From Phycisphaerae bacterium RAS1 (GTDB taxonomy: Bacteria; Planctomycetota; Phycisphaerae; UBA1845; Fen-1342): 64,000 bases of DNA. The stretch is from contig SMLU01000005.1 of the NCBI GenBank assembly GCA_007859745.1, positions 1 to 64,000 on the forward strand, read 5' to 3'. The notes below the pieces were generated by a model. The model was given only the letters and a program-made list of their open reading frames with translations. It was not told where the DNA came from and ran no database searches. Numbering within the stretch: position 1 is the stretch's first letter; each line of letters begins with the position of its first letter. This document shows, piece after piece, positions 1 through 722 of this stretch. The translations under genes and the position numbers were made by a program.

Positions 1-155
1 CCCCCCCCCCCCCCCACCGCGGCGGACTCGATCGCCCCAGAACGCCACACTACCCCGTCGGCCGGCCGGAAGAAAGCTGTCATCCCGGCGGTTAAGTTGT
101 TAGACTTTGGGTCGTTCGAGCCGATAGACGACTTCGAACCCGTACGGAGAATGGC

Positions 156-722
156 ATGATGTTTATGAGACGCAGTCTCGGAAAGCTCGCCGCGCTGGCC
201 ACGCTCGGGCTGGCCCTGGCGGTCGCCACGAACGCCGACCCGGGCGGCGCCGCCGCGGGCATGGCGCCGAAGTTCAAGGCCAAGAGCATGTCGGGCGCCG
301 AGATCGACTTTCCGAATGCCTACAAAGGCAAGGCGGTGCTTCTCGTCTTCTGGGCCACGTGGTGACCCCCCTGTCGGGCGGAAGCCCCACGCCTGGTTCA
401 GGCGTATCAGAAGATGCACGGTGACAGCTTCGAGATCGTCGGCGTCTCGCGCGACAAGGCCCGCGGCAAGGACGCCGCCACCGTCAAGAAGTTCCTGGAA
501 ACCAACAAGATGGCCTGGCCGCAGGTCTACGAGGGGACGGACCCGATCTCGCAGCTCTACGGCGTGCGCGGGATTCCGTCGCTCTTCCTGGTGGACGGCG
601 ACACCGGCAAGCTGCTCGCCAGCGGCGGAGATCTCCGCGGAGATTCGCTGGAAGGCACGCTGAAAACCGCCATCGCGGCGAAGGAAGCCGAGAAGAAGAA
701 AGCCGGAAAAAAAGGCAAGTAG
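156..722 (+). CDS. TlpA/thioredoxin-like exported protein with in-frame UGA at the catalytic Cys (candidate selenoprotein)
   Basis: An open frame of 188 codons is broken only by a TGA at 363-365 (codon 70). Translation up to the TGA ends VLLVFWATW and resumes in the same frame as PPCRAEAPRLVQ, so the TGA stands exactly where TlpA/ResA proteins have the first Cys of WCPPC. The second Cys (codon 73) is present, as is the cis-Pro loop GIPSLFLVD (Pro about 141). An N-terminal signal segment (LAALATLGLALAVA) puts the redox domain outside the cytoplasm. The tail is Lys-rich. The start is ATG 156 (ATGs also at 159 and 165) after a GGAGA. Most likely a UxxC selenoprotein, inferred from the UGA position and the hairpin at 366-405. 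The alternative is a nonsense mutation or a read error in a cysteine homologue. Confidence 0.8.
366..405 (+). promoter_or_regulatory. Candidate bacterial SECIS hairpin after UGA 363-365
   Basis: A perfect 7-bp hairpin, ACGCCUG-GUU-CAGGCGU (389-405), follows the UGA. Its loop starts with G, and 30 nt separate UGA from loop, within the range published for bacterial SECIS elements (roughly 16-37 nt). A shorter overlapping alternative is GGGC-GGAA-GCCC at 376-387, with its loop 14 nt from the UGA. The hairpin lies inside coding sequence, as bacterial SECIS elements do. SelB binding is inferred; selA, selB, selC and selD are not in this window. Confidence 0.5.

Follow-up and report, generated by a model that had tools for sequence, protein, structure and literature searches.

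A probable selenocysteine codon at the active site of a TlpA-like oxidoreductase from an otherwise cysteine-containing planctomycete clade

The TGA codon that interrupts a thiol-disulfide oxidoreductase gene near the start of the window (the whole 64,000-nucleotide stretch of planctomycete DNA analysed here) most probably encodes selenocysteine (Sec) at the catalytic position, given that the full Sec machinery is present in the genome and the required RNA hairpin in the gene itself. Read in this way, the product would be an exported TlpA/ResA-like oxidoreductase with Sec in place of the nucleophilic CxxC cysteine, the UGA being decoded by means of SelB and the hairpin. We give this reading a probability of roughly 0.93. 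The features concerned are listed in Table 1.

Table 1. Features of the oxidoreductase gene, in window coordinates
Feature	Position	Strand	Basis
TlpA/ResA-like thiol-disulfide oxidoreductase gene	156..722	+	188 codons through one TGA; PF00578 and fold matches
GGAGA, 5 nt ahead of the ATG, probable ribosome-binding site	146..150	+	inferred from sequence
Probable N-terminal export signal, MMFMRRSLGKLAALATLGLALAVATNA	156..236	+	inferred from sequence and the low-confidence N terminus of the model
TGA, codon 70, read as Sec, first position of UPPC	363..365	+	Cys invariant in homologues; Sec machinery genes
TGT, codon 73, resolving Cys of UPPC	372..374	+	sequence and homologue alignment
Predicted bSECIS hairpin, ACGCCUG-GUU-CAGGCGU	389..405	+	folding, register, covariation
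GUU apical loop, 30 nt past the UGA, with G-C closing pair	396..398	+	apex as in most family SelD hairpins
CCG, cis-Pro loop (GIP, Pro141)	576..578	+	invariant in homologues; model

The gene occupies a single frame running from the ATG at 156 to a TAG at 720-722, with the TGA as its sole internal stop. Reading this codon as Sec gives the active site WATWUPPC, and no Cys/Sec codons other than 70 and 73 occur in the gene. An earlier note, made from the letters alone, had described a lone UGA at the first Cys of WCPPC in a 188-codon frame, with the second Cys, the cis-Pro loop and the remainder of the gene intact. This description holds in full: Cys73 and Pro141 are in place, and GC3 is 0.88 upstream of the TGA and 0.84 downstream. 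A nonsense mutation, by which a young pseudogene was struck by chance at its catalytic Cys, would require just a single substitution, but the frame and GC3 downstream show no decay. Moreover, the note's argument that random nonsense would rarely fall on this codon is borne out, with codon 70 being just one of the 52 codons (out of 188) that lie one substitution from a stop; only 10 lie one substitution from TGA.

The position of the gene raises a second alternative, namely that a true TGC or TGT is concealed by an error of sequencing or assembly close to the contig end. The window begins at base 1 of its contig with a C run, and the codon lies 363 bases in, adjoining a C6 run. Such an error would not, however, make a hairpin 23 bases further on, which the Cys homologues are without, and the neighbouring ORFs are intact; we regard it as exceedingly unlikely. 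The very start of the contig (window positions 1-15) consists of 15 C, which may be a read-end artefact. The next gene downstream (910-2331) resembles a radical-SAM enzyme in its sequence and, because of this neighbour and the location at a contig end, the neighbourhood gives no clue to the substrate. Inside the radical-SAM-like gene, GTCGAAT heptamer repeats form an inverted repeat at 1800-1897, an apparent insertion through which the reading frame stays open. The stretch 2270-2400, at the 3′ end of this gene and past it, is densely filled with direct and inverted repeats such as GGGATCAAGGGACC / CCCTTTATCCCTTTATCCC.

The protein starts with a signal-like N terminus; the AhpC-TSA/Redoxin/Thioredoxin_8 domain after it contains WATWUPPC when the TGA is read as Sec. 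The profile match to PF00578 is clear (E=4.5e-22; 78.7 bits against a cut-off of 26) and, with Sec as the first residue of UxxC, this is the domain arrangement of the corresponding selenoproteins. In a 25-sequence alignment, into which the window protein was entered with C for U, residues W66, A67, W69, C70, C73, P78, W121, P141 and G151 are invariant. A structure model built from this alignment has a pLDDT of 89, with low confidence at the N terminus, and places residue 70 just ahead of a helix (71-87) and Pro141 just ahead of a strand, the layout of the thioredoxin (Trx) fold. Its best fold matches are thiol-disulfide oxidoreductases, e.g. 4grf, 4nmu and 3kcm. The score against the TlpA equivalog profile NF047696 is below the cut-off (56.5 against 230), and therefore we call the protein TlpA-like rather than TlpA; the ResA profile NF002854 likewise scores below its cut-off (80.2 against 170).

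The genome, which is 99% complete, contains all four components of the Sec machinery (selA, selB, selC and selD) for which the earlier note had proposed a search. SelA is over its cut-off (E=8e-79, matched in two pieces within a single open frame), SelB is over its curated cut-off, a tRNA-Sec with anticodon TCA scores 67.8 bits, and SelD has an in-frame TGA of its own at the canonical site, CAGUAGK. Judged by gene content, the organism should indeed be able to make selenocysteine. SelA is also found in 24 of the 27 genomes of the family. Some family genomes have a SelD gene without the TGA (loci L193, L194, L195 and L196), which in genomes G006, G010 and G014 stands beside a Sec form. Within the window, TGA terminates 33 of the 65 long high-GC3 ORFs, and it is therefore not a general sense codon. 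This usage as an ordinary stop rules out a general reassignment of UGA to another amino acid such as Trp; in addition, the Trp beside the UGA is encoded by TGG and every homologue has Cys at the aligned position, leaving such a reassignment with a negligible probability.

The hairpin with a G-first loop 30 nt past the UGA, as the earlier note had proposed it, is found at 389-405. It begins 23 nt past the UGA and folds at -9.6 kcal/mol into a 7 bp stem capped by a GUU triloop. Every value falls inside the published bSECIS limits, which allow 3-9 nt for the loop, 4-16 bp for the stem and 16-37 nt for the spacing, and ask for an energy of -7.5 kcal/mol or lower and a G within the first two loop positions (PMC13188914). 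Hairpin energy alone is weak evidence in a GC-rich genome: -9.6 kcal/mol is reached at 5.5% of coding positions and -7.5 at 11.5% (on the looser published criteria alone), and resampling synonymous codons for the actual protein yields an equally stable hairpin in 16% of cases. Taken as a whole, the region shows ordinary folding stability (z -0.7 to -1.5), and therefore the evidence resides in the specific hairpin, that is, in its apex, register and covariation.

Hairpins that combine a G[GUN]C apex at 27-36 nt with 7 or more base pairs in the stem are rare, being present at 12 of 85,735 in-frame coding positions, or about 1 in 7,000. The same G-C closing pair and GUN loop are found at 33 nt in 7 of the 10 SelD genes recovered from the family; the loop is exactly GUU in two of the recovered hairpins, and three genes (L199, L203 and L205) have a different best-scored loop. 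The SelD of this genome shares the G[GUN]C apex, on a stem of only 5 bp. Of 45 UGA-containing TlpA-like genes, 12 (the window gene and 11 relatives) carry the hairpin at exactly 30 nt, whereas none of the 30 Cys motif matches taken from homologue loci has one at that place. Moreover, the hairpin covaries. In a 13-sequence alignment, both sides have changed in 5 of the 7 pairs and 0 of 500 shuffles match the covariation score; 96.7% of cells are paired, a percentage biased upward since members outside the same order were picked for having the hairpin. The same-order set (L062-L068) was not picked in this way.

The nearest homologues, at about 50% identity (up to 53%) in 120 related genomes, all have Cys at codon 70, where the window gene has its in-frame UGA; this answers the alignment that the earlier note had suggested. 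Within this subfamily UGA is confined to one genome, with none found in orthologues from the other sampled species, and it reappears in more distant relatives. Conservation of the UGA among orthologues would strengthen a selenoprotein assignment, although it is no strict requirement. This isolation speaks for a nonsense mutation, but the specific SECIS hairpin, absent from every Cys homologue examined, speaks against it together with the intact frame, and we consider a chance mutation very unlikely.

The pattern WA[ST]WUxPC matches in 13 of the 397 genomes of the class, and in a contig database many planctomycete MAGs are among the matches listed; some of the matches are flanked on either side by long in-frame Trx-like sequence. 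Going by these sequences, UxPC proteins of TlpA-like fold appear to be common in planctomycetes. Chance matches of the UGA pattern in non-coding frames (e.g. in Actinomycetota) were removed by frame and cis-Pro checks, and the pattern match in genome G019, of the same family, does not lie in a long frame (locus L059). One planctomycete contig (L174) has two separate UxPC TlpA-like genes, at 2246 and 6240, about 4 kb apart. In the isolate genome of Epilithonimonas tenax (L084 2917), a Trx-like frame has UGA at the catalytic Cys and no obvious SECIS hairpin; here the UGA could be a nonsense mutation.

In a tree of 74 sequences, the window protein is the only U within a well-supported Cys clade (98/90), beside 19 Cys members. 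The outgroups to this clade have Cys, and the majority of the other U proteins group separately. As the sole Sec form there, the window protein looks like a local Cys/Sec exchange. A local change from Cys to Sec would be the simplest history, as opposed to an ancestral Sec that was lost many times. Such a switch may be easy because the conserved helix P-[HR]-L-V-[QE]-x lies about 30 nt past the catalytic codon, where few changes would yield a G[GUN]C SECIS. We put forward tentatively, at a little under even odds, that this helix eased the switch and that the hairpin arose independently in several planctomycete TlpA-like lineages.

We therefore return to the reading of the TGA as Sec. SelB with Sec-tRNA(Sec) would bind the hairpin, so that the UGA is read as Sec. 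The selenolate at position 70 would then attack a substrate disulfide, and Cys73 would resolve the resulting mixed bond, in the manner of other UxxC redox proteins. Delivery of Sec by SelB and resolution of the selenolate intermediate by Cys are established for bacterial Sec insertion and for UxxC redox proteins, respectively. The N terminus suggests that the protein is exported.

In standard annotation this gene would be cut short or lost. Its recognition adds a well-supported Sec member to an otherwise Cys clade, in a lineage with SelA in nearly every genome sampled, and the resulting natural Sec/Cys pair allows one to ask when Sec is worth having. Moreover, the G[GUN]C hairpin common to selD and tlpA-like genes could serve as a lineage-specific SECIS signature for finding selenoproteins in Planctomycetota.

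The selenoprotein reading of the earlier note is thus supported, but its claim of novelty is not, given that UxxC TlpA-like/AhpC-TSA members are already catalogued and planctomycete UxPC proteins are common. Listed selenoproteins include a 'Prx-like thiol:disulfide oxidoreductase' (PF00578, UxxC), a 'Thiol-disulfide isomerase-like protein' (cd02966, UxxC; since 2005, PMC1088965) and a 'Redoxin family protein' (PF08534, UxxC) (PMC13188914, Table 1). Selenoproteins in Planctomycetes are described in PMC4807772. In the largely open-access literature covered, its supplementary candidate table excepted, no TlpA-like UxPC selenoprotein from planctomycetes is named. Novelty is limited: the window protein adds an example to a kind already known and does not found one of its own.

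ResA, StoA, DsbE and TlpA (3kcm, 4nmu, 1jfu) share its fold, active-site place and cis-Pro, but have Cys in place of Sec, and the window protein falls far under their NCBIfam cut-offs. The ResA-like WAxxUGC selenoprotein family (NF041054, WAxxUGC_long) is alike in having Sec right after WAxx in a ResA-like domain; its motif is UGC rather than UPPC, and the window protein scores 44.3 bits against a cut-off of 300. With the PF00578 and cd02966 UxxC selenoproteins it shares the AhpC-TSA/TlpA-like Trx fold, Sec as the first residue of UxxC and a bSECIS just downstream, a likeness drawn by domain and motif rather than by sequence kinship with the representatives (WP_010940744.1, MGB1650493.1). In contrast, the sampled members of its own planctomycete subfamily otherwise all have Cys. 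Lastly, the planctomycete UxPC TlpA-like proteins L062-L068, from the same order and another family, have WATWUxPC and the hairpin at 30 nt in common with it (29 nt for the best-scored form in L064), whereas most of them fall in a separate clade and have a longer C terminus.
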